Part shown: in pieces, positions 17,901-61,627 of the stretch | How the letters are laid out: every line of letters begins with the position of its first letter | Position numbering within the stretch: the first letter of the stretch is position 1 | Assembly (NCBI GenBank): GCA_006386115.1 | Contig: VFIW01000028.1 | Span: forward strand, 404,512-468,511 | Reading direction: 5' to 3' | Origin: Globisporangium splendens | Lineage: Eukaryota; Oomycota; Peronosporomycetes; Pythiales; Pythiaceae | DNA length: 64,000 bases | Notes under the pieces: generated by a model | Database searches by the model: none | Told to the model about the DNA's origin: nothing | What the model saw: the letters and a program-made list of their open reading frames with translations, nothing else | Translations under genes and position numbers: made by a program

Positions 17901-18071
17901 TTTGCATTCTGCAATGGCACGACGAATACTCGTGGCGGTGGTAAGGAACTCTTGCGACAACTCCACGCTATGATCACCCACTGCTCCACCAGAGTGATCG
18001 AGCATCTGCAATTCCGATTCTGAGAGGCGTCGTTGCAACCTCTGGATTTTCTTCTTGTATCCTTGATTCAA
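14970..18071 (-). CDS. LINE ORF2 part: reverse transcriptase + RNase H
   Basis: This is a continuous 1033-codon frame (the first Met at 18071 is not the native start, since ORF2 begins further upstream in other frames). RT motifs are clear: PDELGNDWY, LLDFAKAYDSLDR, SGIRQGCPL and the catalytic block GGYADDTTIYL. Next comes WTTGSNPECSQVVQSSVQHL, an RVT-type zinc-binding motif fused by an internal deletion to upstream RT thumb sequence. The C-terminal RNase H domain starts with LLFFDGGSRGNPGPGGTG and continues with NNFAEYWGLIHGL and VIGDSALI. The G-rich DGGSRGNPGPGG style is that of archaeal-like RNase HI, as known from plant L1 elements. The product would prime and copy LINE RNA; this copy lacks an intact endonuclease in cis. 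Confidence 0.85.
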   Translation of the reverse strand: MNQGYKKKIQRLQRRLSESELQMLDHSGGAVGDHSVELSQEFLTTATSIRRAIAECKSKWQASKRDRIFREHMHHERKTSKSFYKRISTKFLDNTIFTLGGTATYGPMRSRELADDMGEGWKSIMQQAPTLQTDIDQILDPGTAVPPSDRLGFLLKPIDSSEIKQAVKKCKRGKAHGPDELGNDWYRDHCDEITGLFERLFNLWIPECVLPSSFSEAHIHCIKKSVSAASPLDYRPIALLNSDYKIFTRIFATRLRTVLPWLIHHMQAGFVPGRAIPTTIDVLLAAQQRVTSDPAMSRAIALLLDFAKAYDSLDRSFLAQALQHLGFPLKFVHLVKVLHSQTTYKFIVNGFLSRKYNVTSGIRQGCPLVPLLFILALEVLYRKIEASDEIHGVELQAAGCATEVRLGGYADDTTIYLSDPKDISAVFAILDKYGAASGLRVNRHKSAVLPLNKEYSSTEESVSDIHVLQREEHYRYLGIQVGQTPSNASNWSKCIQTLRVRLRLARLKTHSGAQRAAIASAVIIPKVLYVARHSWPSTAIVNQLHDLVKQFVWGSRNGKPAKPWTKEEQAELKKMNGGLSVPNIRTELMTMSATAVSKWAITTSHIAQVIGEILLHNTRTSSTYITPLDAIPRRPLQLRDNMWTTGSNPECSQVVQSSVQHLFWECPKAKLVWNYFYALWAKIGITPGHDPAIWIFSLDLQDTPRHAWTTIKRHIIGHKFSNEHLQDHLYPVAHMLWRYMSASLIHAIWCAHLRRMDSDPIESTSEMAIMMTRLEAGMRNLTRLAGAQAGDSDGHTVATVLKAYVDCFLSQIDAIPLTPSDTRGVYLLFFDGGSRGNPGPGGTGSIIVRVHKDSHTASLIWVASLAYSRKDMTNNFAEYWGLIHGLREAQRSHFEPLYVIGDSALIISQQRMHRSPRQHRLARLYQTSRRLADCIDIRGLYHHYRAFNKMADSAANLAMDTRTSTQVHFPTQRVAFNNLTQDLDNDVMHWLMRSSEDPWSLDNTRQLHIGPREHAILVKDYLAFRSDLLQSAL

Positions 18072-30060: not shown

Positions 30061-30725
30061 TCTGCGCTTTGCATGGACGGCGGACACTCGAGATGGAGAC
30101 ACGCACACACGCGATACACACACACCGCAGTCTCGTACACAGGAGACTGACGGCCGCAGGGAAGACACGCGAGAGCTCTGGTGGTGGATCAAGCGCCACC
30201 GATGGCTTCGACCAGCAGATTAGCGCGCGTTAGCTGCTCCAATTGGAGACGAGGAACCGAGGGAAGGGCAGGGTTTTGCTTGGCAGGAAGGCACTGTTCA
30301 TTGCCCTTGATGAATACTGCGTCGTAATACGAATATATAGAATCTGAACGAGTTAGTTGTAGGTCTGATTGAGCTAAAGTGCTACTATTATATTTGAGCA
30401 GTGTACGAAGTGTTGCAGTGACATTGTTAGAAGGTTTCAGCTTCCAATCGATTAAGTACGAAATACCGGTTTATCTGCGGTATGTGACTGAAATGATGAA
30501 ATAGAAGACCGAGTTGAGCAAGGATTTGTATCACCACACAAACCGCCGAGTGCCCATTCCAGACAAACTTGAGTAAACGTGCACGACAAACTTGCATGCT
30601 CCTCTACGATCAAGGCCGGTTGGGCGATACTCTGCGCCGTGCTGGGGACAGTGCGGTGGTCATTCGACAGCAAAAGCGTCACATGCCTCTAGGGTTTCTG
30701 TACCCACAATCTAAACACTTGGTCG
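30061..30725. other. intergenic, no gene recognised
   Basis: This is upstream sequence of the PHD-finger gene and 5' flank of LINE copy 3. No clear Inr+FPR element or coding frame was seen. Confidence 0.4.
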
Positions 30726-32729
30726 ATGATCAATCTCAGCTCTAAAATGTCTGACAGGCTTCCAGGTATCATCGCTGAAGGACGAAAGCTACGTGGGACA
30801 TTCTGTGCAGAATGGCTGTCATACATGACCTCGACTGCAGATGGGTGGCTTCTTGATTCCAATGGCTCCCCTTACAAGCTTGCTCACACATCATTATCAG
30901 TTGGAACAGCACAACTGGGCGACATACTTCGATGGGAATGGATAAGACCAGGAGTGCTTAACTTCATCCCAACATGTGGAATCTCCGGATCCTCCCGGCC
31001 GTCTATTCGAGCGCTCGAGCGGTTATGTGCTACGTTGGTATCCAACTTCCCACAGCTTCTGTATCGACCACAGCAAGCAAATGTGCTTCGGCTGTACAAC
31101 GGGCAACGTCATTACAACCACGAATGGCATCTGCACACCAGCGAAGCAACTCTGACCCACATCGACACGACCCTAGTCAAAGCTACGCATACAGTTCACT
31201 CCGCAATGGACTGTGACGTCATGGCAACAAGAGACTTGAACGGGCAGAAGGTCTCGTTCCATGCACATCCACGTTTCACAAGAATCGTACAACTATGGGG
31301 TGGCAACGGACGATATAATACGACCAGATCTTTCTATCGGCAACAAGTTGCAGCAACGAGGACACAAATTGGCAAAGATACTCGAGATGCAACAGTCAAC
31401 AAAGCTGTCCATACAGCAGGATCTCTGTGGCCAGGACTGCAATTAATCCAGTGGAGCGAATTACACACCATCCCAGGGATTACTGTTTATACGGCTCAGA
31501 CTCTTCTCCGGCTGAAAGCCAACCGACTCTCCATGTGGAACTATGAGAAAGCTGATCTATCCTGCTCGAATCCCGAATGCTCCCAAGTTGTCCAATCTTC
31601 TGTTCAACATCTATTCTTGGAGTGTCCGAAAGCCAAACTGGTGTGGAACTACTTTTGTGCGCTATGGGCGAAGATCGGAATCGCTCCTGGTCACGACCCC
31701 GCAATCTGGATCTTCAGTCTGGATCTACCAGATACTCCAAGGCATGCATGGACCTCGATCAAGAGACACATTATCGGACACAAGTTCTCCAATGAACATC
31801 TCCAAGATCATCTCTATTCCGTCGCACACATGCTGTGGCGATATATGAGCGCGTCGCTCATACATGCCATTTGGTGTGCGCATCTGCGACGCATGGATTC
31901 GGATCCAATCAAATCGACTGCTGAGATGGCTATCATGATGACCAGATTAGAGGCAGGAATGCGAAACCTCACACGACTCGCTGAAGCGCAAGCTGGAGAC
32001 TCGGACGGTCACACGATTGCAGCAGTTCTCAAGGCATATGTCGACTGCTTTCTCAGCCAAACCGACGCCATCCCCTTGACTCCAAGTGATACTCGCGGCG
32101 TTTACCTGTTGTTTTTCGATGGCGGATCACGCGGCAATCCAGGACCAGGAGGGACTGGATCCATTATCGTGCGTATCCACAAGGACTCGCACACAGCCAG
32201 TTTAATTTGGGCCGCGAGCATGGCGTATAGCAGGAAGGACACGACCAACAACTTTGCCGAGTACTGGGGTCTCATACATGGACTCCGAGAAGCCCAACAC
32301 AGTCACTTCGAACCGTTGTACGTGATTGGAGACAGTGCACTCATTATCTCCCAACAGAGAATGCATCGGTCCCCTCGACAGCACCGATTGGCACGTTTAT
32401 ACCAGACAAGTCGACGACTCGCGGATTGCATCGACATCCGAGGATGGTACTATCACTACCGTGGCTTCAACAAGATGGCGGACTCAGTCGCCAACCTAGC
32501 CATGGACACCAGAACCTCAACGCAGGTTCACTTCCCAACTCATCGAGCTGCTTTCAACAATCTCACTCAGGATCTTGACAACGACGTCATGCATTGGCTT
32601 ATGCGAAGTTCGGAAGACCCAAGGTCATTGGACAACACAAGGCAGCCTCACATAGGACCAAGAGAACATGCCATCCCGGTCAAAGATTATTTAGCATTCA
32701 GAAGTGATCTATTGCAATCCGCGCTGTAG
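30726..32729 (+). CDS. LINE ORF2 C-terminal part with zinc-binding and RNase H domains
   Basis: This is 667 codons from an internal ATG that is not a native start. The first ~270 residues are LINE ORF2 sequence absent from copy 2. A zinc-binding block CSNPECSQVVQSSVQHLFLE followed by C-P-K-A-K lies at about 280-303. The RNase H domain (about 455-600) has DGGSRGNPGPGGTG with the first catalytic Asp, NNFAEYWGLIHGLREA with the catalytic Glu, and VIGDSALI with the third acidic residue; the full DED set is present. As an isolated 5'-truncated copy it is probably untranslated. Confidence 0.7.
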   Translation: MINLSSKMSDRLPGIIAEGRKLRGTFCAEWLSYMTSTADGWLLDSNGSPYKLAHTSLSVGTAQLGDILRWEWIRPGVLNFIPTCGISGSSRPSIRALERLCATLVSNFPQLLYRPQQANVLRLYNGQRHYNHEWHLHTSEATLTHIDTTLVKATHTVHSAMDCDVMATRDLNGQKVSFHAHPRFTRIVQLWGGNGRYNTTRSFYRQQVAATRTQIGKDTRDATVNKAVHTAGSLWPGLQLIQWSELHTIPGITVYTAQTLLRLKANRLSMWNYEKADLSCSNPECSQVVQSSVQHLFLECPKAKLVWNYFCALWAKIGIAPGHDPAIWIFSLDLPDTPRHAWTSIKRHIIGHKFSNEHLQDHLYSVAHMLWRYMSASLIHAIWCAHLRRMDSDPIKSTAEMAIMMTRLEAGMRNLTRLAEAQAGDSDGHTIAAVLKAYVDCFLSQTDAIPLTPSDTRGVYLLFFDGGSRGNPGPGGTGSIIVRIHKDSHTASLIWAASMAYSRKDTTNNFAEYWGLIHGLREAQHSHFEPLYVIGDSALIISQQRMHRSPRQHRLARLYQTSRRLADCIDIRGWYYHYRGFNKMADSVANLAMDTRTSTQVHFPTHRAAFNNLTQDLDNDVMHWLMRSSEDPRSLDNTRQPHIGPREHAIPVKDYLAFRSDLLQSAL

Positions 32730-34176: not shown

Positions 34177-35631
34177 ATGACGACGACTTCCAAGATCCCA
34201 TTGACGCGCCAGAACCCGGCGTGGACGGTGCTCAAGGACCCAGCACGTCGACTGGACGACGACAAGAGCTCTGTGAAGAGCGTGATCCCGCTCACCAACT
34301 ACAAGAGTTCGACGTACCTGGCTGAGCTCCTGGTCGACGGTGACAAGCACGTCGTGCTCGTGGACACGGGCTCGTCGGACTTTTGGCTCTCGTGCGCCTA
34401 CGTCGGCGACAAGAGCTGTGCACGGACATGCCCATACAGTGCCACAGTGATCTCGTACGGGTCTGGTGATGTGTGCGTGGAAAAGTCCACGGCTACTGTG
34501 CAAGTCGGCGACCTCAAGATCAAGGACTACGTGGTCTCGACTGCCCAAGGCCGCAACATGATCCCCAACACAGACTACAGCATCCTCTCGTCGGGCACCG
34601 AGGGACTCTTCGGTCTCGGCTACGCGTCGCTCGCGGCGATCCCCAACACTAAGGCGGGCCAGTTCATCGACCACCTCGACAGCTTCTCGATCTACTTGAC
34701 GGACGAGACCAACAGCACGGGCTCGTTCCTGCAGCTCAACGGCGTCGACAACGAGCTCATCGCGCGCGAAAACATGAAGCCGTACACGATCCCGCTGCTG
34801 GCCAACCCAAGCCACTGGTCCATCGGCATGACGGCGTTCCAGGTCGGCAACGAGACGGCGCAGTTCCCGTGCGACTCGATCCTCAACATCCTCGAGGACG
34901 ACTCCACACGCTGCAAGAGCATCGTCGACACGGGCACAACGCTGCTGTTCATGCCGGACGATCTGTTCACGAGTTTCGCGCGCAAGTATCTCACGCCCCA
35001 GGGCTGCGAGGACGCGAGCAACTACGTTGCTGGCATCTCGGACTCGCTCTACGTGTGTGAGAAGAGCGTCAAGCTCCCGCAGCTGAGCTTCACCTTCGAC
35101 GACTTTACGTTCTACCTCAACGGCGAGGACTACACGATGCCGCTGGATGACACGGAGCTCGTGGTCATCGAGCTGCAATCGAGTGGGTACACGGCCAACT
35201 CGTGGATCATCGGCGACACGTTCCTCAAGCGCTTCTACACATCCTACGAGGTGAATCAGTCAGTCACGTTCTACTGCCGCGAGGGCGACTGCGCTCAAAA
35301 CGTCGTGACGAACCCCATCGAGCCTGCACCGCGTACACCAGCACCTTCGTCGGCCAAGAAGTCGGGACTCGGCTCCAGTGGCAGCTCCGTGTCAGACAGC
35401 AGCTCTGTCTCCGAGAGCAATTCCAGCAACAGCGGCGCGGTCGTGATTCTCGCTGTTGCGCTCGCAATTGCGGGCGTCGTCCTGCTCGTCGGTGCGTTCC
35501 TGTTCGTGCGCCAGCGGAAGCGCAAAGCCGTGGCTGCCACCTTGGAGCTTGCCAATGATGTCGACGGCAGCTCTACACCCGTGACCGACTACCCAGCACC
35601 GCTGCCTCCCACGCCAACGGACCGCGTGTAA
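34177..35631 (+). CDS. pepsin-like (A1) aspartic protease with C-terminal membrane anchor
   Basis: Single exon, 484 residues. Residues 1-40 start with SKIPLTRQ, resembling the start of an A1 propeptide. The catalytic motifs are VLVDTGSSDFW (Asp63) and SIVDTGTTLLF (Asp251), both intact. Paired Cys residues follow the first motif (CAYVGDKSCARTCPY). Conserved SWIIGDTFLKRFYTSYE closes the catalytic domain. A Ser-rich stalk follows, then one hydrophobic segment of ~23 residues at about 419-442 ending in RQRKRK, then a short Pro-rich tail. This predicts a type I membrane protein with the protease outside, yet no N-terminal signal peptide is visible from this ATG, so an upstream exon or unusual targeting is possible. 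The gene is paralogous to the two proteases at 37888 and 60155. Confidence 0.88.
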   Translation: MTTTSKIPLTRQNPAWTVLKDPARRLDDDKSSVKSVIPLTNYKSSTYLAELLVDGDKHVVLVDTGSSDFWLSCAYVGDKSCARTCPYSATVISYGSGDVCVEKSTATVQVGDLKIKDYVVSTAQGRNMIPNTDYSILSSGTEGLFGLGYASLAAIPNTKAGQFIDHLDSFSIYLTDETNSTGSFLQLNGVDNELIARENMKPYTIPLLANPSHWSIGMTAFQVGNETAQFPCDSILNILEDDSTRCKSIVDTGTTLLFMPDDLFTSFARKYLTPQGCEDASNYVAGISDSLYVCEKSVKLPQLSFTFDDFTFYLNGEDYTMPLDDTELVVIELQSSGYTANSWIIGDTFLKRFYTSYEVNQSVTFYCREGDCAQNVVTNPIEPAPRTPAPSSAKKSGLGSSGSSVSDSSSVSESNSSNSGAVVILAVALAIAGVVLLVGAFLFVRQRKRKAVAATLELANDVDGSSTPVTDYPAPLPPTPTDRV

Positions 35632-37887: not shown

Positions 37888-39366
37888 TCAATGCGTCTGT
37901 GGCGTGAGTTGCGCAGGGTAGTACGCGCCGTTCACCGCTGGCGGAGCCTCCTGGCCGTAGGCAGAGCGGTTTGCTCGGCGTCTGCGCGATCGCACGCAGC
38001 AGAATGCACAAATGAGAAGGAGAATGGCACCAAGCACACTGACAACGATGATCAGGACCGTCTCGGTTGTGCTGAGGCCGCTGCCGTTGCTGTCGCTCGT
38101 CGATGCGCCTCCCGAGTTGCTGCCTCCGAACAACGGACTCACAGGACTGCTGGAGCCACTGCTCGATGGGAAACTCGTCGTGGCAACAGCGCCTTCCGCG
38201 CACGAGCCTTCTGGGCAGTAGAACGTGACGGACTGGTTCGTCGCGTACGACGAGTAGTACATCTTGAGGAACGTATCGCCGATGATCCACGTGCTACCGA
38301 GACTTCCGGTTGACCCCGTTGGGAGCAGCTCCACAATTACGTACTGCGAACCTGGGATCGAAATCACGTAGTCCTCGCCCTCGAGGTAGAACGTGTAGTC
38401 GTCAAACGTGAGCCCCAAGCGCGGCAACGACACGCTGCTTGGACACACGTACACGGCGCTGCTCGCTGCTTCCGTCTCGTCAGCGACAACACACCCATTT
38501 GGCGTCAGATACGATGACACAAACGAATTAAAGATCGCTGTTGGCATGTACAGCAGCGAGGTGCCCGTGTCAACGATGGCGCGGCAACTCGATGTGCCCC
38601 CCGATGTGTAGGTCGCGCTGCTGCACGGGAACACGGCGGTCTCGTTGCCGACTTGGAACGCCGTCATGCCGATCGACCAGTGTGTCTCCTCCTTCAGCGA
38701 AAGGATGTACGGCTTCAGGTTGTTCTTGGAAATGTAATCCTCGTCGACGCCATTGAGCATGAGGAACGAGCCGTCCGAGTTGGCTTCTTCCGTAAGGAAC
38801 ACCGAGAAGCTCGTCAAGTAATCGATGAACTGACCTCCGGGCGATGGAATCGTTGCGAGCGATTGATATGCGAGTCCCAGCAGACCTTGCGACCCACCTG
38901 GCAGCAGACTCGATGACGACGTTCGCAATACGTTGCTTCCCTGCGCGATGCCGACGACGTAGTTGTCCACGGAGACTTCGCCGATTTGCACAGTTGCATA
39001 TGCGCCTTGGATGCACACCGTGCCGGAACCGTACGTGATCGAAACGGATTTCGACGGACACGTGGACGAGCAGCTCGTGCCACTCACGTACGAGCACGAG
39101 ACCCAGAGGTCTGACGAGCCCGTGTCGACCAGGACCGTGTACGTCGAGCCGTCGATCTTGATGTCCGCAAAGTAGATGACGCCGTTGTAGTTCACGAGCG
39201 GGATCTCATTCGAGCTGCTGCCGGTGCTGGCGCTCTTCTTGAGCCGCCGCGCACCAGACTTGATCGAGAGCGCGCGCTGGCGTGTCAGCGGGATCTTGCC
39301 GTTAGACGCGATGATCGCCGCTGCTGCGCTGGATGACGAGAAAGACGAGGAGCTGCTGGTGCTCAT
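37888..39366 (-). CDS. pepsin-like (A1) aspartic protease with C-terminal membrane anchor
   Basis: 492 residues from ATG 39366; the frame is open further upstream through a non-ATG codon, but the start is fixed by the paralogue at 61627, which begins with the same Met-Ser-Thr-Ser run. A Ser/Ala-rich N terminus leads to GKIPLTRQRALS (propeptide-like). Catalytic motifs are VLVDTGSSDLW (Asp81) and AIVDTGTSLLYMP. The domain ends with STWIIGDTFLKMYYSSY. A Ser/Gly-rich stalk and one membrane segment follow (TVLIIVVSVLGAILLLICAF, then C-C-V-R-S-R-R-R-R), then a short cytosolic tail ending TPQTH. As with its relatives no classical signal peptide is seen. Sequence identity with 60155-61627 is very high, including flanks. 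Likely a cell-surface or endosomal protease. Confidence 0.88.
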   Translation of the reverse strand: MSTSSSSSFSSSSAAAAIIASNGKIPLTRQRALSIKSGARRLKKSASTGSSSNEIPLVNYNGVIYFADIKIDGSTYTVLVDTGSSDLWVSCSYVSGTSCSSTCPSKSVSITYGSGTVCIQGAYATVQIGEVSVDNYVVGIAQGSNVLRTSSSSLLPGGSQGLLGLAYQSLATIPSPGGQFIDYLTSFSVFLTEEANSDGSFLMLNGVDEDYISKNNLKPYILSLKEETHWSIGMTAFQVGNETAVFPCSSATYTSGGTSSCRAIVDTGTSLLYMPTAIFNSFVSSYLTPNGCVVADETEAASSAVYVCPSSVSLPRLGLTFDDYTFYLEGEDYVISIPGSQYVIVELLPTGSTGSLGSTWIIGDTFLKMYYSSYATNQSVTFYCPEGSCAEGAVATTSFPSSSGSSSPVSPLFGGSNSGGASTSDSNGSGLSTTETVLIIVVSVLGAILLLICAFCCVRSRRRRANRSAYGQEAPPAVNGAYYPAQLTPQTH

Positions 39367-40132
39367 GGCTGCTCGGAACACGAGGAACTCTTTACTCACG
39401 GTCTCACTTGGCGCCGTACCGTAGAAAAGAAGAATGCAATGTGAGACTTGAGCAAGTCGCACTTGGTGCAGTGCAAGTCGCGACTGGTAGCTGGTCGGTC
39501 GACGAAAAAGAACAGAAGCGAATCTCGTTCAGCAGAGCGAGGAGGGTATAACTGGCACCAGCGAGGCGGGCAATATATCCACTCGACGCCAGATGGATTG
39601 CACCCTACCGACCGAAGCAGACGCGTGGGCTGTGCTGAGTTGGGGCACTTTTTCCAAATGCTCCTTCCTCCCCGCCGCAATCGCACAGAGAAGACAGACG
39701 CGCCACCGTGTCATGTGTCCACGAAGGAGGGAACAACAGGGTGTAGGACACATATCCAGTACCCCATGTCACAGAGTTGCGGCTTTTCGTAAATATTAGT
39801 AAACATTTGTGTCTATAGTCGTAAATTACCTGTTTTCATTCAGTCAAAAAGAAGAATAGAAAACACAAAAACACATGGGTACCGCAAAGTTCGGTTAGAT
39901 GAGCCACCCAAAAGTGTTGGGTTTTTGCTGCTGAGCCCTCAAAACAGTGGGTCTCAAACGCAGAAGCTTGAATGCAGACACACCAGGCACTACCATTGAT
40001 CGAAAGTCAACAAAAATCGTTTGCTTGCGTGACAATCACCAAATTTGGTGAACGTCGGGATACCATCGTATCTCCGACTTCGCTTGCATTTTGCATCGCC
40101 GCGTGCAGCCAACAGCAATCGCGTATCATATA
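39367..40132. other. upstream region of the protease, duplicated at 61628-62165
   Basis: Parts are shared with the region upstream of the third protease: GTGCTGAG-TTGGGGCAC (39638 and 61926), and CCCATGTCACAGAGTT followed by TTTTCGTAAATATTA (about 39766 and 62131). On the minus strand CTCACATTGCATTCTT (about 39430-39447) is a weak Inr+FPR candidate ~65 nt before the ATG. Confidence 0.5.
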
Positions 40133-40309
40133 TGTAATGAAATGGGGTTTTCCATTACACGGGTTCTTGAGTACAAAGAATGTGGGTCATACCCACACGG
40201 GTTCTACCACTCTCTACAAACCCACACGCTAACCCATCAACACTCTGTGTAGCCAGTTTCATTTTTAGCCAATAAGAACACTCCATTAAAGTTTGATCTC
40301 ATTGGATGA
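40133..40309 (+). repeat. family-2 LTR, left part (interrupted by element A)
   Basis: It begins TGTAATG and contains paired GTGGGT...ACCCACA blocks, as does the LTR at 58436. It ends in CATTGGATGA, the insertion point of element A; the other half resumes at 47960 with GATGATAGTCGG. The uninterrupted relative reads CATTGGACGATAGTCGG, confirming the join. Confidence 0.75.
40305..40309 (+). repeat. target-site duplication of element A, left copy
   Basis: GATGA here and again at 47960-47964, directly flanking the LTRs of element A. Confidence 0.85.
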
Positions 40310-40959
40310 TGTAATGCACCATAACCAGCCATTACATGAAGGTGGATCTGTCCCCAGATCTAGTGTGTCACACACCACCTTCAGCGTGCATTGTGGAGAC
40401 ACAAATAACAAAGGGATTACGGTAATACAGTCCCCACATGCACGTGTGATGTCATTCGATGACGTCACGAGTGTTCTCTGTGCTGATCAGTGCAGAATGT
40501 TGTTCTCATGTACTAATCAGTACAGAGTGATAACATCCATATACTAATCAAGTACTGAGTGATGGTTCCTGCTTGGGAAACTGGGCTGGCGACGAGACCG
40601 ACGTGTCTCTGCCACCTGGAGTGAGTGGCGCGAGTCAATCACTTTGCAGGGATTTTATACAAGACTTGAAGTTCAAGCTTCTAGAAGATCCCGTAGGTTC
40701 AACCTCAGTGTACCCAAGGTTTTATATATCATATTCATAGGTTTTATTGTGTATATTTAGGTTTTAGTTATAAAACGTGTAGGAGCCCTTGGGGTTCATT
40801 TGTAAGTAGCGACAGGAACCATAACCTTTTCAATTCAGTTGCAAATTTTCCTCCAAGCCCTCAAGTCTTCGTTCCTCCCTCCAAGTCGGGAGATCGCTTC
40901 CTCTGGCACAAGCGTGTGTGCCGTGTTTGAGGGACTGTTGTAAACAGCGCCCTCTTACA
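40310..40959 (+). repeat. 5' LTR of element A
   Basis: 650 bp, TG...CA ends with TGTAA/TTACA inverted termini. It holds a CRE-like TGACGTCA-type block (TGATGTCATTCGATGACGTCA, about 40447-40468) and TATA-like TTTTATATATCAT near 40722. Confidence 0.9.
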
Positions 40960-41078
40960 CCTGGTAGCACTTCGAGCGGTCCTTCCAACGACCCAGTGAA
41001 GTGAAGAGGTTTGACGACGTGGCTTTAAGCACGTCGCGCATTCCTGTCCAAGACCCTGCGAGCATCCTTGTTCGGAAC

Positions 41079-44000
41079 ATGGATGCTACAGGAACCCCAC
41101 TCGGTCCAGCAGTACCGGAAACTGTCGAGTTGACTATTGAGGGTTTCCCTCATTTGTCTTCTCATGAGTGGATGGCGCTTGAGCGCATGCGAGATGTCAT
41201 CGGAGAGGCTGCCGTGGTCAGTCTGCTTCGATCGGCATCTCCGGAGGACCAGAAGAGTGCGGTGGTCAGCTTCATGCACCACGAGATCATGTCCTCCCGG
41301 AAGCAGGTCGCAACCCCTGTTTCCTCACTCAGGACGGTGCCGCTGAAGCTTGACGTCTCTCCGTATCGCGGCGGAGAGAACGAACCCCTCTCACGATGGT
41401 TCGTCGAGTTGGATGCAGCCATCGCTGCAAGGCAACTGCGGGACCCTTCGCAGCAAGTGTTGTTCGCGATGTCCAACCTTGCGGGTCGTGCGAAGAGCTG
41501 GGCGTATGGTAAGCGTTTAGTCGATCTAAACTGCTTCCCCAGCTACGATCATTTCAAGACCGAACTCAAGAAGGCGTTTGAACCTCCACAGAGTGAGTTC
41601 CGTGCGCGCGCCGAGTTCCTCAAGCTTCGCCAAGGCCGTTTCGACCTTCACTCGTATGCACAACGTGCTCGCTACTTGGTGTCGAGTATCGTTGACGAGC
41701 CGATTGACGTTCCGACGCAAGTCGTGACGTTCATGACGGGTCTGAACGATGGTCCGATTCGGAACCAACTGTTCCGCGAGTATCCGAAGACGCTGGACGA
41801 AGCCATTGAACGTGCGATGCAAGAAGAGTTCAGCATCAAGCAAGCGAAATTCCATGGGTTCGCGTCGAGACCAATGCGGCAATCAAATGTCGTGTATGAC
41901 GGTCCCGAGCCCATGGACATCTCGTACATTTCCACGCCTGGAAATGAGCGTCCTCGCAACGATGGGAAGTGTTTCCGTTGCGGGAAGCCGGGTCACATTG
42001 CTCGGAACTGCAAGGTGTCTTTGCCGGGTCGGCAAACGACACAGGTGCTCGTTCGAACACCCACGATCGTTCTTACGATCGTCGGTTCGAGCGGTCACCT
42101 GGGCCAAAAAACGGGAATGGACAGTAGGGGCGGGGCCTCCTACTGACCCGGAAAAGAGGACTGTGGACGTTGTGGAGACACAGGACTCTGGCCCCTATGT
42201 GCATCAAGCACATGCAGTTTCCACAGTGAGTGAGAAGAGTGTCAGTCAAACGTCAAGTTTGATCGTTCACAAAGTTCATGTAGACGGTATTGCAACGCCT
42301 CTACGAGCTTTGGTTGACACTGGTGCGTCGAACAACTTTGTTCGAAATGAAGTGATCGTCAGACATGGTGTCTTCGTGCCTGATGCGAATGAAGAGAAGG
42401 CTATGATCGTCCGGTTGGCAAACGGGTCAACTGTGAAGATGCCGAAGCGCGTGGTGCGCTTGGCAATCAAGTGTGGAGATTTCCGAGGTGAAGACGAGTT
42501 CATTTTACTCGACCTCGATGGCAAGTTTGATATCATCCTTGGCATGCCGTGGTTGAAGCGTTACCAACCTAGCATTGACTGGATGAATATGAAGATCTCC
42601 GTTGGCAAGTCACGCGATGTTGACTTGTGCTGCACAACAACGGATGAAGTGGTGTGGGTGTACACATCTGTGGAAGAGATCCCAGATGACCCTTGTGATA
42701 TTGCGGTGTGCGATGGCCCCCCATGTTCACAAGTGGTACCCATTTTGAAGACGACGAACGGAGGTGGAGCAGTCAGGCGCCAGAAAAAGACTGTCTCCTT
42801 TGCCATCGACGACGACAAGGTTCGTGATGGCGTTGACAAGATTGGATGGAAGAGGAACAGACACCCTTCCCAAGACAAGAAGACCAGCAAGAGAAGTTTT
42901 TCGTCAAGAGTTTTGAGTACCCCTGATCAAGGTACAAGTGGTGATGGCGAAGGGAGTGTCCAAGCACAAGACACTCCAAGCGAGTTTGTGAATATCGCGG
43001 TCTACAATGAAGAAGGTGACGTGGATGTAATCCGCCACGTGAAGATTGAAAATCCTCCAAGTTCAGTCCAAGAGTTGATTTCCTTGCCACCGATGAGCAA
43101 GAAGACACTGGAGCGCAGCCTAGTGAGAGGCGATATTGCGCAGGTGTGTGTGATCGTCGAAATGGTCGACGAAGGCCTCGTCAACACAGCATCGAGTGCG
43201 GATGCAGATGTGTTGGACGAAAAGACACGGAAGGAAAGGTTCGAGGAGCAGTCGTGGGACGCCCTCAAGAAGAACCCCGTGTATGCGCTTGCCAGGGAAT
43301 ATGAAGACATCTTCCCTGACAAGGTGCCGGACGAATTGCCATTCAATAGAGGCATTCGTCATGAGATTGATGTACTTCCTGGCACGAAGTACTGCATCAC
43401 AAGACAGTGGCCGTTGCCAAAGGAACAAGTCGAGGCAATCGACGAGTTCCTTGCACAACGTGCTAAGGCTGGTCATGTGCGGGAGAGCAAGTCTCCGCAT
43501 TGCAGCCCCACTTTCTGTGTGAAGAAGGCAACTGGAGGTTGGCGCATTGTTCACGCTTTCAACAAGCTGAACGACGCGACAATTCCAGCACAGACTCCGG
43601 TTCCACGCAAGGACATGATCCTTGACGGAATGGCTGGCAGCACCGTCTTTAGTGCTATCGATCTGAAAGATGGGTTCTATCAGATTCGAATGCGCGAAGA
43701 CGATGTCCCACTAACCGCAGTGAGTACCCCGAGTGGTATGCTGTGGGAATGATTAGTGATGCCACAGGGACTGAAGAATGCTCCTGCGACCTTCAATCGA
43801 ATGGTCACGAACGTTCTTCGTCCTTTGCGAACATTTGCACCAAGTTACTTTGACGATATTTTCGTTCATAGTAAGGCCACGAATGGGAAGTCTGATGTCG
43901 ATGTTCATCTCGATCATCTTCGTCAAGTCTTCCAGGTCATGCGTGAGAACAAACTCTACGCAAACTTGAAGAAGTGCATGTTCATCGCCCCCGAGATCCC

Positions 44001-46890
44001 TGTTCTCGGTTGTTTTGTGGGCAAGAGCGGTGTTCGAGTCGATCCGGAGAAGGTCAAAGCTATTGACGATTGGCCAGTGCCAAAGAATGTCAAACAGCTA
44101 CGACAATGGTTGGGTTTAGCCAACTACTTGCACAAGTACACGCGCAATTACGCAGCGTTGGTGCAACCCCTCACACAGCTCTTGAAGAAAGACGTTGAGT
44201 GGAAGTGGTCGAAAGACCATGAGACGGCATTCGAAGAAGTCAAGAGAGGTCTTCGAGAAGCTCCCGTGTTGGCTCTGCCAAACCACGACAAGCCGTTCCA
44301 CGTCGTCTGTGATGCGAGCGACTATGCCATCGGTTGCGCCTTAATGCAACACAATGATGAGGGTCACGAGCGAGTTGTGTCGTATCAGTCACGACAACTC
44401 CGACCCGCAGAACGGAACTACCCAGTTCACGACAAGGAACTTCTGGCGATGAAGTATTCTTTGGTCAAGTTCCGTGTGTATCTGCTTGGCGAGGAACGCT
44501 TTGCTATCTACACTGATCACGCATCTCTGCGTACGGCAGTGAAAACTCCTCATTTGTCACAAAGAATGGCGAGATGGTTCTCCTTCTTTGCAGAGTACAA
44601 CTTCGTTGTACACTACAAGCCAGGCAAGACGAACATCTTAGCCGATGCGCTGTCAAGACGTCCGGATTACGATCCGAAGACCAAGAGTGAAGGCACGGAC
44701 GGAGCGTGTCGACTCTGTGAAGATGTTCAAGCGATCGCGGTGCGAGCTGCGACTACAGTGCGAGAAGAGATCGTCGAAGGGTACAAGTCTGACGAAACAT
44801 GTCGGGACTTGTTGAAGTACTTCAAGGACCCTTCCGACAAAGCACTGCAAGGTCTTCCGTCGCGCACAAGATCGCGAGTTCACCGCTTTCGAGTACACAA
44901 TAGGTTGTTGTACTATGCGGTCGAACAAGGGGATACAGCAAGGGTTGTTGTTCCCAACGACGAAGGTCTGCGTCATCGACTCTTGTATGAGTACCATGAC
45001 AGTCCTTCGGGTGGCCATCTCGGACGTGAGAAAACATTTCTCAGTCTTTCCCGAGATTACTACTGGCCACACATGTACAAGTGGGTTCGCAAGTATGTGA
45101 GGACTTGCGAGATCTGCCAACGAGTGAAACCCTCTGGTTCCACGCAGGCACCACTTCGTTCATTGGCTGTCCCATCGGACAGTTGGAAGTCTGTGAGTAT
45201 GGATTTCATATTCGGACTTCCAAGAGACACACATGGACGCAACGGCATCCTTGTGTTTGTGGACCGATTCAGCAAGATGGTCCATCTTGCGTCTGTTTCG
45301 GACAAGATCTCAGCGGAAAAGACTGCCAAGGTCTTTGTAGACGTCGTATTCCGTCTGCACGGACTACCAGTCGAGATCGTGTCTGACCGTGACACCCGTT
45401 TCACGTCCAAGTTCTGGCGTGCACTCTTCGGACTTCTGGACACCAAGTTGTCCATGTCAACAGCAGCACACCCTGAAACGGACGGTCAAACAGAGCGAGT
45501 GAATCGAGTCCTTGAAGACGTGTTGCGCAGCTACGCAATGTCTTTCAAAGAGTGGAGTGAGTTTCTCCCTCTTGCCGAGTTTGCGTTGAACAACTCCACG
45601 CATGTCTCGACAGGTCACTCTCCCTTTTATGTGAACTATGGCATTCACCCTCGAGTGCCTGCTTCCATAATGGGCGAGGTCTCTACCTTAAGTGGGGGAG
45701 GGACTCCGGCTCATGGTAACAAGCCGAAGTCGCCTTACGACCTGAATGCTGCTTCCGAGTTGAAAGCCAATTTTGACTCGATGAAACCCCTCGACGACCT
45801 AACAAGTCGTGAAGGGCAGCAAGTCGATGACTTTGTTGTGAGGAGACAAGCCGTTGTGAGGTTTGTTCGAGACGCAATCGCAAAGGCTCAGGATCTGCAA
45901 AAGGAACAAGCAGACAAGAGCGGAAGGAAGAACAAGCAAGTTTATAAGATCAATGATCTTGTATTGCTTAGTACGGCGAACCTGCCTGAACATGCAGTGT
46001 CCAACTTGGGAAGCTCCAAGCTTCTGCCAAGGTTCATTGGACCGTTCAAGGTAGTGAAATGCAATGGCGATGCCTACACGCTAGACATACCTACACGCAT
46101 GCGTCTACACCCAACATTTTATGTGGGTAGACTGAAGCCTTACCTTCCAAGTGGATCTGCGGATCCTACGAGATCTTCTGCAAACGATCGAGCTGATCGT
46201 GAAGCTTCTCCACTTGATTGCGAAGAGCAAACAGCTCATCGCTCTGGAGATTCTTCTCGACGTACAGGAGTTGCAGGACGTCGAAGGATTGGTCCTTCAC
46301 TGCCTCCAACGCTTGAAGACGAGAATGGTACTCACCACGAAGTACCTCGAGTGCCGAACCTGCCTCTTCCACAGAGCGCAACAGGCGATCGTGAGCCAAC
46401 TCACGAGACTTCTCGTTCTTCCGGAGTCGAACAAGTTCGTCCTGAACCTGTTGGAACCGTTCCTCGAAACGGGACTCCAAAGCTGAACACTGGGCAGAAC
46501 CTTCTGTCAGGACGTCGATCTTCGACTCATGATCGGCGACAAGGTTCTCGAGACTCTCGCAGCGTTCCTCAAGCGTCGAACAACGATGCTGCAAAGCCTC
46601 GATTTGCCCACGATGAGCACTCTTCCACTTCCAGAGTCGCTCAATCGTTTTCTCGTTCAGCCCCACCCCCGTTGTTAGACTCTCAGGGAGAGCATCGCTG
46701 GGTGGTTGAGTCGATTGTTGATCACGAAGATCGACCGACTCATCGTCGAGGAAAGAAGCGGTTGAACCACCAACGCTTCTACAGAGTTCGGTGGCGTGGA
46801 TATCCACCGAGCTCGGACACGTGGGAGCCTCGTCAGACATTGGAGTCTGATGTTCCCGACGTGGTCCGCACCTATGAGAACTGCTTGTAG
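41079..46890 (+). pseudogene. element A gag-pol, one frameshift and one stop
   Basis: Gag begins at ATG 41079 and holds a retrotransposon capsid region and a CCHC knuckle (CFRCGKPGHIARNC). A single G missing near 42043, judged against element B, shifts the frame to 42146. Pol follows: protease VDTGASNNFV, RT with KDGFYQIRM and YFDDIFVHS, RNase H FHVVCDASDYAIG, integrase with an HHCC finger (HDSPSGGHLG... CEICQRVK) and DDE core (SMDFIFGLP, SDRDTRF, HPETDGQTERVNR), GPY-type IGPFKVVKCNGDAYTL, and a C-terminal chromodomain (RVRWRGYPPSSDTWEP). A TGA at 43750-43752 replaces the Trp codon found in B. Apart from these two changes the polyprotein is open, so decay is slight. The chromodomain would direct insertion to marked chromatin. 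Confidence 0.9.
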
Positions 46891-47233
46891 CGTCGCCAGG
46901 GGTGACACTACGACGACCAGAGCTACGGTTCGCTCTGTCGTCAGCAGGAGTTCTTCTTTCGGCACGAGCATTGCCACGACGAAGAAGACGCTCCATCTTG
47001 TTCTCATTCTCAAGACGAACAAATGTTCGCCATGAGTCTCTCTGGGCTGCGACGTGTTGGTTCGGATCATCGCGATCGTTGATCCGACGCCAACTGAAGA
47101 ACCGCTCCTTGTAGAACTCGAGCTTCCCCTTCTTCTTCAGAATGGGAGAAATGTCGAAGAGTTCTGGAGCTGTCCGCTGTCGCTTGGACGACGGACGTTC
47201 TTCACGGTTCACTTGGTCACTTGGTCGCTTCAT
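46166..47233 (-). CDS. antisense ORF of element A, coiled-coil protein
   Basis: 355 residues from ATG 47233, on the strand opposite gag-pol, starting 77 bp inside the 3' LTR boundary and running back over the chromodomain and the linker before it. The frame also stays open 38 codons upstream, into the LTR, to another ATG at 47347. N terminus: SSKRQR (nuclear-signal-like), then FYKERFFSWRRINDRDD and WRTFVRLENENKMERLLRR. C terminus (~170 residues): heptad-rich coiled coil (ERLWKWKSAHRGQIEAL ... FALRNQVEKLHDQLDRL). Element B has the same frame, intact, at 50800-51861. Between the copies the antisense frame is ~71% identical over 147 residues of the linker, against ~50% in the sense frame, which suggests selection on this protein. 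An Inr/FPR-like site lies just upstream. No known family recognised; function unknown. Confidence 0.7.
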   Translation of the reverse strand: MKRPSDQVNREERPSSKRQRTAPELFDISPILKKKGKLEFYKERFFSWRRINDRDDPNQHVAAQRDSWRTFVRLENENKMERLLRRGNARAERRTPADDRANRSSGRRSVTPGDATSSSHRCGPRREHQTPMSDEAPTCPSSVDIHATELCRSVGGSTASFLDDESVDLRDQQSTQPPSDALPESLTTGVGLNEKTIERLWKWKSAHRGQIEALQHRCSTLEERCESLENLVADHESKIDVLTEGSAQCSALESRFEERFQQVQDELVRLRKNEKSRELAHDRLLRSVEEAGSALEVLRGEYHSRLQALEAVKDQSFDVLQLLYVEKNLQSDELFALRNQVEKLHDQLDRLQKIS

Positions 47234-47237
47234 TGCC

Positions 47238-47251
47238 GAATGGAAAGTGAA
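47238..47251 (-). promoter_or_regulatory. Inr/FPR-like core promoter for the antisense ORF of element A
   Basis: On the minus strand TTCACTTTCCATTC has a perfect Inr TCACTTT and a partial FPR (CATT of CAWTTT), with a predicted start 15 nt before the ATG at 47233. The same site, with one base changed, precedes the antisense ATG of element B. Confidence 0.45.
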
Positions 47252-47309
47252 CTGCTCCGAAAGGTCTGCAAAAGTACGCAAGGTACTTGTGACTTTAAGG
47301 AGGGGATGA

Positions 47310-47959
47310 TGAAATGGGCCACAACCAGCCATTACATGAAGGTGCATCTGTCCACAGATCTAGTGTGGCACACACCACCTTCAACGTGCATTGTGGAGAC
47401 ACAAATAACAAAGGGATTACAGTAATACAGTCCCCACATGCACGTGTGACGTCAGAAGATGACGTCACGAGTGTTCTCTGTGCTGATCAGTGCAGAATGT
47501 TGTTCTCATGTACTAATCAGTACAGAGTGATAACATCCATGTACTAATCAAGTACTGAGTGATGGTTCCTGCTTGGGAAACTGGACTGGCGACGAGACAG
47601 ACGTGTCTCTGCCACCTGGAGTGAGTGGCGCGAGCCAATCACTTTGCAGGGATTTATACAAGACTTGAAGTTCAAGCTTCTAGAAGATCCCGTAGGTTCA
47701 ACGTCAGTGTACCCAAGGTTTTATATATCAGATTCATAGGTTTTATTGTGTATGTTTAGGTTTTAGTTATAAAACGTGTAGGATCCCTTGGGGTTCATCA
47801 GTAAGTAGCGACAGGAACCATAACCATTTTTAATTCAGTTGCAAATTTTCCTCCAAGTACTCAAGTCTTCGTTCCTCCCTCCAAGTCGGGAGATCGCTTC
47901 CTCTGGCACAATCGTGTGTGCCGTGTTTGAGGGACTGTTGTGAACAGCGCCCTCTTACA
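47310..47959 (+). repeat. 3' LTR of element A
   Basis: 650 bp, preceded by the polypurine tract TAAGGAGGGGATGA and followed by the TSD GATGA (47960-47964). The first bases read TGAAATG rather than TGTAATG. Confidence 0.9.
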
Positions 47960-48468: not shown

Positions 48469-49450
48469 GGCAGACGCCTTCCTACGTGAACGCCCTCAGG
48501 CACCCACGTGTTCCCTCCATCCTCGGTGGGATGTCCCCTCCGTCGGTGACATCTCCCTTGAGTGGGGGAGGAGTCCGCGAAGCAGCTGCTTCGGAACAAG
48601 CGAAGAGCGCGGAGATCTCGCACCATCATGGGTAGGCAACTGCTCATGCGGCGATCGTCGACAAAGACATCGTTGCAACAGTGTTGCAGCGGCAAGCTGT
48701 CATCCGCTTCGTCCGCGATTCAATCGCCGACGCAGTGGATGGCCAGAAAGAACAAGCGGACAAGAGTGGCCGCAAAAACACGAACGAGTTTCAACGAAAT
48801 TCGTTTGTTTTATTATCGACTGCTAACCTACCTAACAGAGTGGTGAGCAGTGACAGCAACAAGTTGCTGCCAAGATACATTGGTCCTTTCAAGGTACTTG
48901 AAAGGATTGGGGACGCATACACGTTGGAGCTTCCTCCAACGATGCGTCTACACCCGACGTTCTACGTCGGGCGTCTCAAGGCGTATCATCGCCACGATGA
49001 CTCGCTGGTCTCTTCCTCTTCAGGAGACCATGACCGCGAAGGATCCCAAGCACAAGCTTGTGATCACCCTCGAGTCTCGAAAGCCGTCCCTCGAGCCGCT
49101 CGTGCTTCGCGGTCATCTCGCTTAGCTCGACCCGAAGTCGGAGGACCTCGTTCTCCCGCTCAGCGTACTTCAGCCGATCAAGCAGACGCTGATCACTCGA
49201 GAATGAACCTCAGAGTCACGAGCAGATCTTCCCTCCTCCAGCTCCACCATTGCGAGACTACGAGGGGAACCAACGCTGGATCGTGGAGAAGATACTTGCT
49301 CATCGCGATCGATTGTCGCGGGGGAAGAAGGAGCGCGTCTACCGCATTTGTTGGCTTGGTTACCCCCCAGATCGAGATACCTGGGAGCCGGCCGCGATGC
49401 TCCAAGCTGATGTTCCTGGCTTGGTGCAGCAGTACGAGAGTCGACATTAA
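48469..49450 (+). pseudogene. family-2 pol 3' end: integrase C terminus and chromodomain
   Basis: The first recognisable block (about 48480-48570) encodes the HPRVPSI and SPLSGGG region that in element A follows the integrase core. In the frame of 48681-49793 come QAVIRFVRDSIADAVDGQKE, KLLPRYIGPFKVLERIGDAY and LHPTFYVGRLKAY. The chromodomain (RVYRICWLGYPPDRDTWEP) lies in another frame at 49250-49450 and ends at a stop at 49448-49450, so at least one frameshift lies in the linker. The protein is clearly diverged from family 1. The rest of gag-pol is absent from the window. Confidence 0.75.
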
Positions 49451-50076
49451 TCGACTCTCGCTTCCACAGCTCGCGGATTCGATCTTGCAATCCGCGAGGA
49501 AGCATCACGCCGTTATAACCCCGCAGTTGCTCCTCAGTCAGCTGAGGATCACCGCTGGTGCAGATGCGGCAACCCCTCGGTGTGGTCTTGACCCCACACG
49601 GAACTCCAAGATCCATGCATTCTTCGTGGATCGCCAACAACTTTCCAACGGCATTGTGCCGAAGGAACTTCTCCCGATTATCTCGCATTCGAGAGATACA
49701 CTTCGCAGCGTCTTCGCTGAAATTCGCAACGAAGGCACTCCACGCTTGCGAAAGGAACAGCGCTTGTTTCTCAGCGCTGTGAGACTTCTTTGACTTCGAT
49801 CGACCATCGAAGTACCGCATCGAATGGAAAAGGTCGATGTAAAACTCCTCGCGCGCCTTGGGATGGAAGTTCTGTCGAAGGCCGAAGTTATCGTCCTTGA
49901 TGGCACCAACATCGTACAGCGCGTGAGTCCCAGCACGTTGAGTGCCACGATGCGCACGAATCCAATTGGGTTTGGGTGTCCACAAGTAGCTCCAGCCAGA
50001 AGGAATGAAATCCTTCCCTTCAGAAGGACCCGTCGCCGGATCCTTCGGTTTCGCCGGTAAGGCAAGATAGCGAGGC
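49170..50076 (-). pseudogene. family-2 antisense ORF, C-terminal part
   Basis: A minus-strand frame open from the element B insertion site to a stop at 49170. It continues in phase the frame at 57727-58226 once element B and one TSD copy are left out; the total would be 468 codons. It contains SGWSYLWTPKPNWIRAHRG, EEFYIDLFHSMRYFDG, QAWSAFVANFSEDAAKC and Cys-rich CGVKTTPRGCRICTSGD. The last ~90 residues overlap the sense chromodomain and linker. The EFY...F-S-x-R...W-x-x-FV pattern resembles the antisense protein of family 1 (LEFYKERFFSWRR ... WRTFV). No known family. It is interrupted by a 7.6-kb insertion and therefore broken in this genome copy. Confidence 0.55.
50072..50076 (+). repeat. 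target-site duplication of element B, left copy
   Basis: GAGGC here and at 57722-57726, directly outside the two LTRs of element B. Confidence 0.85.
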
Positions 50077-50799: not shown

Positions 50800-51861
50800 A
50801 TGAAGCGACCAAGTGACCAAGTAAACCGTGAAGAACGTCCGTTGTCCAAGCGACAGCAGACAGCTCCAGAACTCTTCGACATATCTCCCGTTCTGAAGAA
50901 GAAGGGGGATCTCGAGTTCTACAAGGAGCGGTTCTTCAGTTGGCGTCGGATCAACGATCGCGATGATCCGAACCAACACATCGCAGCCCAGAGAGACTCA
51001 TGGCGAACATTCGTTCGTCTTGAGAACGAGAACAAGATGGAGCGTCTTCTTCGTCGTGGCAATGCTCGTGCCCAAAGAAGAACTCCTGCTGACGACAGAG
51101 CGAATCCCAGCTCTGGTCGTCGTAGTGTCACCCCTGGCGACGCTACAAGTGGTTCTCGTAGCTGCGGACCACGTCGGGAACATCAGACTCCATCGTCTGA
51201 CGTGGTTCCCACGTGTCCGAGCTCGGTGGATATCCACGCCACCGAACTCTGTAGAAGCGTTGAGGGCTCAACCGCTTCTTCCCACGAGTCTGTCGATCCT
51301 CATGATCAACAATCGACTCAACCACCCAGCGATGATCTCCCTGAGAGTCTATCAATGGGGGTGGGGCTGAACGCGAAAACGATTGAGCGACTCTGGAAGT
51401 GGAAGAGTGCTCATCGCGCTCAGATCGAGACACTGGAAGTTCGCGATGCGATCCTTTCGGATCGGTGCGAGAGCCTCGAGGACCAAGTGAAGGAGCAGGA
51501 GTCGCGGATCGACTCGCTGACCTTTGGTCCCGCCCAGTATCGGGCTTTGGAGTCCCGTTTCGAGCAACGGTTCGAGCAAGTCCAGGGCGAACTTGAGCGA
51601 CTCCAAAAGGCTGAGAAGGCTCGTGAAATGCATCACGAACGTCTACTGCGCTCTGTGGAAGAGGCAGGGACGGCTCTTGAGGTACTCCGCAAGGAGTATA
51701 ACTCGCGCCTTCTCGTGCTGGGAGCTGTGAAGGAGGAGTCCTTCGATGTGCTTCAGCGCCTTTACGCCGAGAAGAATCTCCAAAGCGATGAGCTGTTTGC
51801 TCTTCGCAATCAAGTGGAGAGTCTTCAAGATCAGCTTGATCGTCTACAAAAGGCTTCGTAG
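50800..51861 (+). CDS. antisense ORF of element B, coiled-coil protein
   Basis: 353 residues from ATG 50800 (frame open upstream into the LTR to an ATG at 50701, as in element A). It has SKRQQT near the N terminus, LEFYKERFFSWRRINDRDD, then an S/T-rich middle that overlaps the chromodomain, then a long coiled coil from ERLWKWKSAHRAQIETL to the stop. Length and start context match the antisense frame of element A. There is no stop or frameshift, although the gag-pol of the same element carries three lesions. The protein could act in trans, for instance as a regulator or nucleic-acid-associated factor, but nothing in the sequence identifies an activity. Plant Tat-type Gypsy elements are known to carry extra antisense ORFs between pol and the 3' LTR; no similarity to those can be claimed from here. 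Confidence 0.7.
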   Translation: MKRPSDQVNREERPLSKRQQTAPELFDISPVLKKKGDLEFYKERFFSWRRINDRDDPNQHIAAQRDSWRTFVRLENENKMERLLRRGNARAQRRTPADDRANPSSGRRSVTPGDATSGSRSCGPRREHQTPSSDVVPTCPSSVDIHATELCRSVEGSTASSHESVDPHDQQSTQPPSDDLPESLSMGVGLNAKTIERLWKWKSAHRAQIETLEVRDAILSDRCESLEDQVKEQESRIDSLTFGPAQYRALESRFEQRFEQVQGELERLQKAEKAREMHHERLLRSVEEAGTALEVLRKEYNSRLLVLGAVKEESFDVLQRLYAEKNLQSDELFALRNQVESLQDQLDRLQKAS

Positions 51862-60154: not shown

Positions 60155-61627
60155 TCAATGTGTCTGTGGCGTGAGTTGCGCAGGGTAGTACGCGCCGTTC
60201 ACCACTGGCGGAGTCTCCTGGCCGTATGCAGAGCGGCTCGCTCGGCGCCTATGCAATCTCATGCCGCAGAATGCGCAAATGAGAAGGAGAATGACACCAA
60301 GCACACTGACAACGACAATCAGGACCGTCTCGGTCGTGCTGAGGCCGTTGCCGTTGCTGTCGCTCGATGCGCTTCCCGAGTCACTGCCTCCGAACAACGG
60401 ACTCGCCGGACTGGTGGAACCACTGCTCGATGGGTAAGCCGTCGTGGACACAGCGCCTTCCGCGCACGAGCCCTCTGGACAGTAGAACGTGACGGACTGG
60501 TTCGTCGCGTAGGAAGTGTAATACGTCTTGAGGAACGTGTCGCCGATGATCCACGCGCCACCGAGGTCTCCGCTGGAGCCCGTTGGGAGCAGCCCGACCA
60601 CCACATATTGCGAATCTGGGACCGAGATCACGTAGTCCTTGCCCTCGAGGTAGAACGTGTAGTCGTCAAACGTGAGCCCCAAGCGCGGTAGCGACACGGT
60701 GCGTGGGCACAAGTACACGCTGCTCGCTTCGTTCGTCTCGTCGGAGATGCCGCACCCGTTCGGCGTCAAGTATGACGACACAAACGAATTAAAGATCGCC
60801 GTTGGCATGTACAGCAGCGAGGTGCCCGTGTCGACGATGGCGCGGCAACTCGATGTGCCCCCCGATGTGTAGGTTGCGCTGCTGCACGGGAACACGGCGG
60901 TCTCGTTGCCGACTTGGAACGCCGTCATGCCAACCGTCCAGTGTGTCTCCTCCTTCAGCGAAAGGCTGTGCGGTTTCAGGTTGTTCTTGGAAATGTAATC
61001 CTCGTCGACGCCATTGAGCATGAGGAACGAGCCGTCCGAGTTGGCTTCTTCCGTAAGGAACACCGAGAAGCTCGTCAAGTAGTCGATGAACTGACCTCCG
61101 GGCGTTGGAATTGTCGCGAGCGATTGATATGCGAGTCCCAGCAGACCTTGCGACCCACCTGGCAGCAGACTTGATGACGACGTCCGCAATACGTTGCTTC
61201 CCTGCGCGATGCCGACGACGTAGTTGTCCACGGAGACTTCGCCGATTTGCACCGTTGCATATGCGCCTTGGATGCACACCGTGCCGGAACCGTACGTGAT
61301 CGAAACGGATTTCGACGGACACGTGGACGAGCAGCTCGTGCCACTCACGTACGAGCACGAGACCCAGAGGTCTGACGAGCCCGTGTCGACCAGGACCGTG
61401 TACGTCGAGCCGTCGATCTTGATGTTCGCAAAGTAGCTGTCGCCTTCGTAATTCACGAGCGGGATCTCATTCGAGCTGCTGCCGGTGCTGGCGCTCTTCT
61501 TGAGCCGTCGCGACCCAGACTTGACCGAGAGCGCGCGCTGGCGTGTCAGCGGGATCTTGCCGTTAGACGCGATGATCGCCGCTGCGGCGCTGGACGCTGA
61601 GGACGAAGAAGAGCTGCTGGTGCTCAT
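60155..61627 (-). CDS. pepsin-like (A1) aspartic protease with C-terminal membrane anchor
   Basis: 490 residues from ATG 61627, single exon. Layout as in 37888-39366: Ser/Ala-rich start, GKIPLTRQRALS, VLVDTGSSDLW (Asp81), AIVDTGTSLLYMP, GAWIIGDTFLKTYYTSY, Ser-rich stalk, membrane segment TVLIVVVSVLGVILLLICAF with CGMRLHRRRAS after it, tail ending TPQTH. It is nearly identical to 37888-39366 through the catalytic domain; differences cluster in the Cys loop before the last third (GCGISDETNEASSVYLC here, GCVVADETEAASSAVYVC there) and in the stalk. No signal peptide is visible. The two genes were probably a tandem pair before the transposon nest grew between them. Confidence 0.88.
   Translation of the reverse strand: MSTSSSSSSSASSAAAAIIASNGKIPLTRQRALSVKSGSRRLKKSASTGSSSNEIPLVNYEGDSYFANIKIDGSTYTVLVDTGSSDLWVSCSYVSGTSCSSTCPSKSVSITYGSGTVCIQGAYATVQIGEVSVDNYVVGIAQGSNVLRTSSSSLLPGGSQGLLGLAYQSLATIPTPGGQFIDYLTSFSVFLTEEANSDGSFLMLNGVDEDYISKNNLKPHSLSLKEETHWTVGMTAFQVGNETAVFPCSSATYTSGGTSSCRAIVDTGTSLLYMPTAIFNSFVSSYLTPNGCGISDETNEASSVYLCPRTVSLPRLGLTFDDYTFYLEGKDYVISVPDSQYVVVGLLPTGSSGDLGGAWIIGDTFLKTYYTSYATNQSVTFYCPEGSCAEGAVSTTAYPSSSGSTSPASPLFGGSDSGSASSDSNGNGLSTTETVLIVVVSVLGVILLLICAFCGMRLHRRRASRSAYGQETPPVVNGAYYPAQLTPQTH

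Follow-up and report, generated by a model that had tools for sequence, protein, structure and literature searches.

Evidence for a conserved antisense protein gene opposite the pol chromodomain and linker of a Ty3/Gypsy retrotransposon family in Globisporangium splendens

Does a long open frame on the strand opposite gag-pol encode a protein of the retrotransposon, or is it a by-product of the gene that it faces? This question is raised by element A, which lies in the window, the whole 64,000-nucleotide stretch analyzed here from a genome of 53.3 Mb. An earlier note, made from the letters alone, had proposed an antisense accessory gene in an oomycete element; the assignment to oomycetes agrees with the database proteins, which carry the name Globisporangium splendens, and the accessory-gene reading is supported as more than chance by codon-level tests of selection.

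Layout of element A and its antisense frame

Element A is bounded by a 5' LTR (40304..40959) and a 3' LTR (47304..47959), both on the plus strand with limits taken from their alignment, the latter possibly including the end of the polypurine tract; 627 of the 655 aligned bases are identical. Pfam scans recognize Retrotrans_gag and a zinc knuckle in the gag frame, and protease, reverse transcriptase, RNase H, integrase, an SH3-like domain and a chromodomain in pol, which is interrupted by a stop at 43750-43752 and ends with a stop at 46888-46890, about 0.4 kb from the 3' LTR. The chromodomain (PF00385; 46699..46878, plus strand) is C-terminal in pol after the integrase, as in chromodomain (chromovirus-like) Ty3/Gypsy elements. 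The linker that joins it to the SH3-like domain (46144..46698, plus strand) is unconstrained in the pol frame where tested.

The antisense gene (46166..47233, minus strand, stop included) counts 355 codons from a conserved inner ATG at 47233, which is the start of most of 22 aligned homologues and lies 71 bases from the beginning of the 3' LTR alignment (47304). Presence, strand, length and a start adjoining the 3' LTR were thus given correctly in the earlier note, whose upper coordinate of 47251 is too high by 18 bases. Counted from its first ATG, the open frame spans 393 codons (47347-46166, minus strand); its 5' extension into the 3' LTR (47234..47347, minus strand) is probably untranslated, the inner ATG being the start in most of the aligned homologues. 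As had been claimed, the frame covers the chromodomain and nearly all of the preceding linker, but about a third of it (46891-47233, roughly 114 codons) extends beyond the pol stop. Its situation, antisense to gag-pol near the 3' LTR, is that of the antisense ORFs (aORFs) of Ty3/Gypsy elements, with an overlap with pol besides. Since the longest open antisense run elsewhere opposite gag-pol (41001-46165) reaches 196 codons, the length of the frame is suggestive only, and the weight of the argument is carried by the tests of selection.

Conservation and selection along the frame

Far from being closed by stops in most copies of its family (family 1), the frame is free of them at 85 of the 105 places scored in a protein search of the same genome, which are 88-100% identical; these places were found by similarity to the antisense frame itself, which favors open copies and leaves elements without the frame uncounted, and some of the matches are partial. 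Like all genome match counts given here, this number is a lower bound. With a query from a second subfamily, 114 matches were obtained, some of them shared with the first list. Element B, 81% identical to element A, belongs to a third subfamily; its homologous antisense gene (50800..51861, plus strand) starts with the same ATG (50800), as had been pointed out from the letters. Among 73 copies that were fetched, 64 lack a stop before codon 340 and 72 show, on the opposite strand and in the register expected, the chromodomain motif of pol. Homologues were found down to 42% identity, metagenome proteins included. Such frames stand as hypothetical proteins in the annotation of this genome, the public gene models of which were made by AUGUSTUS with transcriptome hints (PMC7163027) and lend weak support to the antisense gene. 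Four database proteins (P0013, P0043, P0049 and P0079) join parts of the antisense frame to gag, Copia, integrase or unrelated sequence, and are probably gene-model fusions or nested insertions.

The codon tests excluded the 9 of 73 copies in which a stop precedes codon 340; six of the 64 kept were used in pairwise tests and ten in a likelihood test, on gap-free codon columns, and columns containing stops were removed in the non-antisense frames. Over the 114 codons outside pol, the codon model with ten copies returned an omega of 0.321 (lnL -1234.80). Fixing omega at 1 lowered the lnL to -1254.44 at the best of the six kappa values tried, which amounts to a ratio statistic of 39.3. In the five remaining frames of this region, omega was 1.02, 1.69, 1.27, 0.64 and 1.90. 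In all 15 pairs of the six copies, dN/dS of the antisense frame outside pol fell between 0.23 and 0.44. Values were also lowered in the reverse frame whose third base is that of the antisense frame (0.44-0.65 in pairs, 0.64 outside pol and 0.46 opposite the linker by the codon model), and the remaining frames scatter widely in close pairs. Strong constraint is therefore found in the antisense frame by pairwise and likelihood tests alike, that is, the conservation as a protein expected of a Ty3/Gypsy aORF, and element A and its family very likely carry a conserved antisense protein gene under purifying selection.

Within the overlap, the first base of an antisense codon faces the first base of a pol codon, the second faces the third and the third faces the second. 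Opposite the chromodomain the base that changes fastest is pol base 3, with 0.230 differences per codon versus 0.132 and 0.114 at the other two; opposite the linker it is antisense base 3, the second base of pol, with 0.318 versus 0.165 and 0.152. Codon models follow the same division, with 0.227 for pol and 2.18 for the antisense frame in the chromodomain, and 0.314 for the antisense frame and 1.60 for pol in the linker. Amino-acid identity opposite the linker, in six pairs, is 0.62-0.74 in the antisense frame and 0.45-0.63 in the sense frame. Overlapping genes bias the single-frame values of dN/dS, but a bias in one direction would not be expected to produce a swap from one stretch to the next. 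Selection is split along the overlap: the chromodomain is kept by pol, and the linker stretch is kept by the antisense coiled coil described below. The linker being less conserved in pol than in the antisense frame, its pol version looks like the coiled-coil gene read passively from the other strand, with stops kept out. The locus is a clear case of two opposite-strand proteins with selection measurably divided along their shared DNA, and a warning that an antisense gene can shape a pol linker.

Two of the copies, L069 and L070, are mosaics. Their match is L033, of subfamily F2, in the chromodomain and beyond pol (0.96-0.99), and L001, of subfamily F1, in the linker (0.945), a pattern that points to recombination between subfamilies. 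The pair L001/L069 has a dN/dS of 0.91 over the whole overlap, to be read with the mosaic nature of L069, the linker of which is 94.5% identical to that of L001.

Predicted product, start site and proposed role

The antisense protein was modeled by AlphaFold2 from 30 sequences (mean pLDDT 73.8, pTM 0.30). A four-helix domain is predicted at residues 29-93, outside pol (46955..47149, minus strand; block means 70-88 over residues 31-90), followed by a predicted disordered stretch at residues 94-179, mostly opposite the chromodomain (46697..46954, minus strand), and by a long predicted helix at residues 184-354, opposite the pol linker (46172..46684, minus strand; block means 90-98 over residues 191-350). 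This helix is most likely a coiled coil, in line with the coiled-coil C terminus that had been read from the translation. The N-terminal stretch (47174..47233, minus strand) holds two basic clusters, by pattern a possible bipartite nuclear signal. The bipartite pattern occurs within the first 40 residues in nine of ten family-1 type proteins, 4-48% of shuffles with the same residues matching as well, and within the first 130 residues in all ten, counted without a shuffle control; in family 2 it occurs in none of three proteins within 40 residues and in two of three within 130. As a nuclear signal, this pattern is only suggestive. Searches of Pfam, of PDB sequences and of folds with the antisense protein yielded no significant match, making it a protein without a relative found in Pfam or PDB.

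Upstream of the ATG, the promoter-like site noticed earlier corresponds to a conserved initiator-like element (47244..47250, minus strand), which matches the oomycete initiator motif YCAYTYY as described in part of one source (PMC3599244) and would place A+1 at 47248, 15 bases before the ATG. An initiator A at -15 is found in 72 of the 73 fetched family-1 copies, although the sequence around it varies greatly from one subfamily to another; on the other strand, the 140 bases examined contain no YCAYTYY in any of the 73 copies, and one copy has a second match at -82. The element is placed between the gene and the LTR, outside the LTR alignment. It recurs at the same distance in the one family-5 copy examined, which was covered for 70 bases ahead of its first ATG, and a strict initiator is absent within 150 bases from four of four family-2 copies. 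The leader implied by this site is only 15 bases long, which counts against a start of its own.

The explanation that we consider probable is that the chromodomain Ty3/Gypsy retrotransposons to which element A belongs encode an additional protein opposite gag-pol, with the proposed role of a nuclear, self-associating regulator. Transcription of its gene would begin at a separate start site just inside the 3' LTR; the protein would enter the nucleus, self-associate via its coiled coil and act on the chromatin or nuclear complexes of the element, tuning its expression or integration, a role like those proposed for maize Grande gene23 and reported for HTLV-1 HBZ. With many open copies of the frame in a single genome, a role in the life cycle of the element is testable.

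The same real protein could instead be a structural or import factor, serving particles or the pre-integration complex rather than transcription or chromatin, which we regard as somewhat unlikely. The long coiled coil, like the basic N-terminal stretch, would fit a scaffold or import role equally well, and import is raised for the plant cases in passages of a review (PMC7264820); there is no direct counter-evidence, and what speaks for the regulator is that a start site distinct from the promoter of the LTR would point to a timing of its own. That the element merely captured a host gene that hitch-hikes along with it is a very unlikely explanation. No Pfam family reached the cut-off, so a lost or unlisted host parent is conceivable, but the frame recurs in subfamilies separated by a dS above 1 and is constrained as a protein over that long term, similar frames occur in other Ty3/Gypsy families, and the chromodomain motif faces it in register in nearly every copy fetched.

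Antisense transcripts of retroelements can act as RNA, according to passages of two sources (PMC7264820, PMC10186651), and double-stranded RNA silencing or transcriptional interference might be all that matters here, the open frame being a by-product. A function of the RNA alone would not preserve amino acids while third bases change, and the amino-acid constraint outside pol (omega 0.32, and 0.29 in one second-family pair) makes this reading highly improbable. A chance frame maintained on the other strand by pol codon bias, for which the open antisense runs elsewhere opposite gag-pol might be cited, is scarcely tenable, being contradicted by the third of the frame that is outside pol and itself constrained, and by the linker, where pol is the less conserved frame.

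Other families and known systems

The proposed antisense protein gene of family 1 has possible counterparts in other Ty3/Gypsy families of the genome. A fragment beside element A (48681-49985) belongs to another such family with an antisense frame of its own, and contains a piece of a longer antisense frame (49170..49985, minus strand) that is probably distantly related, judging from sequence and profile comparison. Of 106 candidates from a genome search with this piece, 95 were matches, often fragments, and many of the long matches sit in open frames of 565 codons. In four family-2 copies (L074-L077), pol ends inside the antisense gene, and the register in L075 is the same as in family 1. The L074/L075 pair has a dN/dS of 0.29 outside pol (Fisher P 7.5e-8, counts rounded). 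Family 2 does not show the base swap opposite the linker: 8 differences fall on antisense base 2 and 8 on base 3, low counts that come from the four full-match copies of seven. A family-5 pair has a dN/dS of 0.54 over its whole shared length. More distant frames (L078-L080), about 30% identical to family 2, have the family-2 core in common; a chromodomain lies on the other strand of L080, where the coordinates give the same register, and no pol domain was seen beside L078 and L079. The register to the chromodomain is hence the same in the three families where both strands were seen.

A whole-length profile match of family 1 to families 2, 5 and 6 (61 columns, E 0.00017) lies only opposite the chromodomain, and was counted as a shadow of pol. 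Compared core to core, the profiles score 29.7, whereas 40 column shuffles averaged 11.0 and reached at most 18.9, so that a common origin of the family-1 core and that of families 2, 5 and 6 is likely, not proven. The structure model of family 2 is poor (mean pLDDT 35.7), and its helix order, which is like that of family 1, was given little weight. A profile search with families 2, 5 and 6 retrieved 18 proteins, 17 from G. splendens and one from ENA. A broader reading would make these genes an old antisense family spread across several oomycete Ty3/Gypsy lineages, the pol linker being mainly the reverse complement of the coiled coil, and the product a self-encoded nuclear regulator that evolved independently as the equivalent of HBZ in an element confined to the cell; we hold this reading tentatively and judge it, as a whole, rather unlikely.

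Antisense genes near the 3' LTR are known from the plant elements Grande, RIRE2 and Retand and from the fungal element Boty, and the plant and fungal antisense accessory genes of Ty3/Gypsy elements are of unknown function, as described in parts of the sources cited (PMC7264820, PMC11963269, PMC8365987 for the former, PMC7264820 for the latter). The analogy drawn in the earlier note with the antisense ORFs of plant Tat elements stands for position and strand, but no relation appears to TRP28 (PF04195), the sole plant domain with a Pfam model, for which hmmscan returned no row in the antisense proteins at E 0.1 or 1. The antisense gene of maize Grande, gene23 (aORF-3R), has its own promoter and a nuclear product; compared by description, the present gene differs in its oomycete host, its chromodomain element and its overlap with pol. 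Retand likewise has an antisense gene near the 3' LTR, with Smc-type hits in some elements according to passages of one source (PMC11963269), yet it carries TRP28, belongs to a non-chromovirus lineage and has 2.9-6.6 kb between pol and LTR, in contrast to the short gap of element A. Boty of Botrytis cinerea, as portrayed in parts of two sources (PMC7264820, PMC8365987), provides with brtn an additional antisense gene of a Ty3/Gypsy element outside plants, which is fungal and is likened here by description.

Outside Ty3/Gypsy elements, HTLV-1 HBZ is an antisense bZIP protein from the 3' end of a retroelement (PMC10186651) and is nuclear (PMC11963269), in the passages cited. Its promoter is in the 3' LTR, whereas the conserved initiator described here is outside the LTR alignment, although a start within the LTR is conceivable here too, and no significant bZIP match was obtained: hmmscan gave no bZIP row at E 0.1 for the antisense protein of element A, and sub-threshold bZIP_1 rows on the relatives L080 and P0074 only (E 0.17 and 0.13). 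Chronos is an oomycete Ty3/Gypsy element with a chromodomain after the integrase, and, according to the portion of its description cited, a second, plant-type RNase H (PMC5348765); in the pol of element A and the scanned part of that of element B, the Pfam scan lists only PF17917 and PF17919 as RNase H domains. The word "antisense" is absent from the main text of the Chronos paper (PMC5348765), and the matches listed from the open-licence literature, by titles and the beginnings of abstracts, report no antisense genes of oomycete retrotransposons. The gene of element A would extend Ty3/Gypsy antisense accessory genes from plants and fungi to oomycetes.

Other features of the window deserve mention in their own right. 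A frame of 1322 codons (26227-30192, minus strand) has no Pfam match at E 0.1. Pfam recognizes reverse transcriptase and RVT_3 RNase H in a frame at 14973-18071 (minus strand) and RVT_3 RNase H alone in one at 30726-32726 (plus strand), domains which we take to be as in non-LTR elements. Finally, three genes for pepsin-like aspartyl proteases (PF00026) are found near the retroelements, at 34177-35628 (plus strand), 37891-39462 (minus strand) and 60158-61627 (minus strand).
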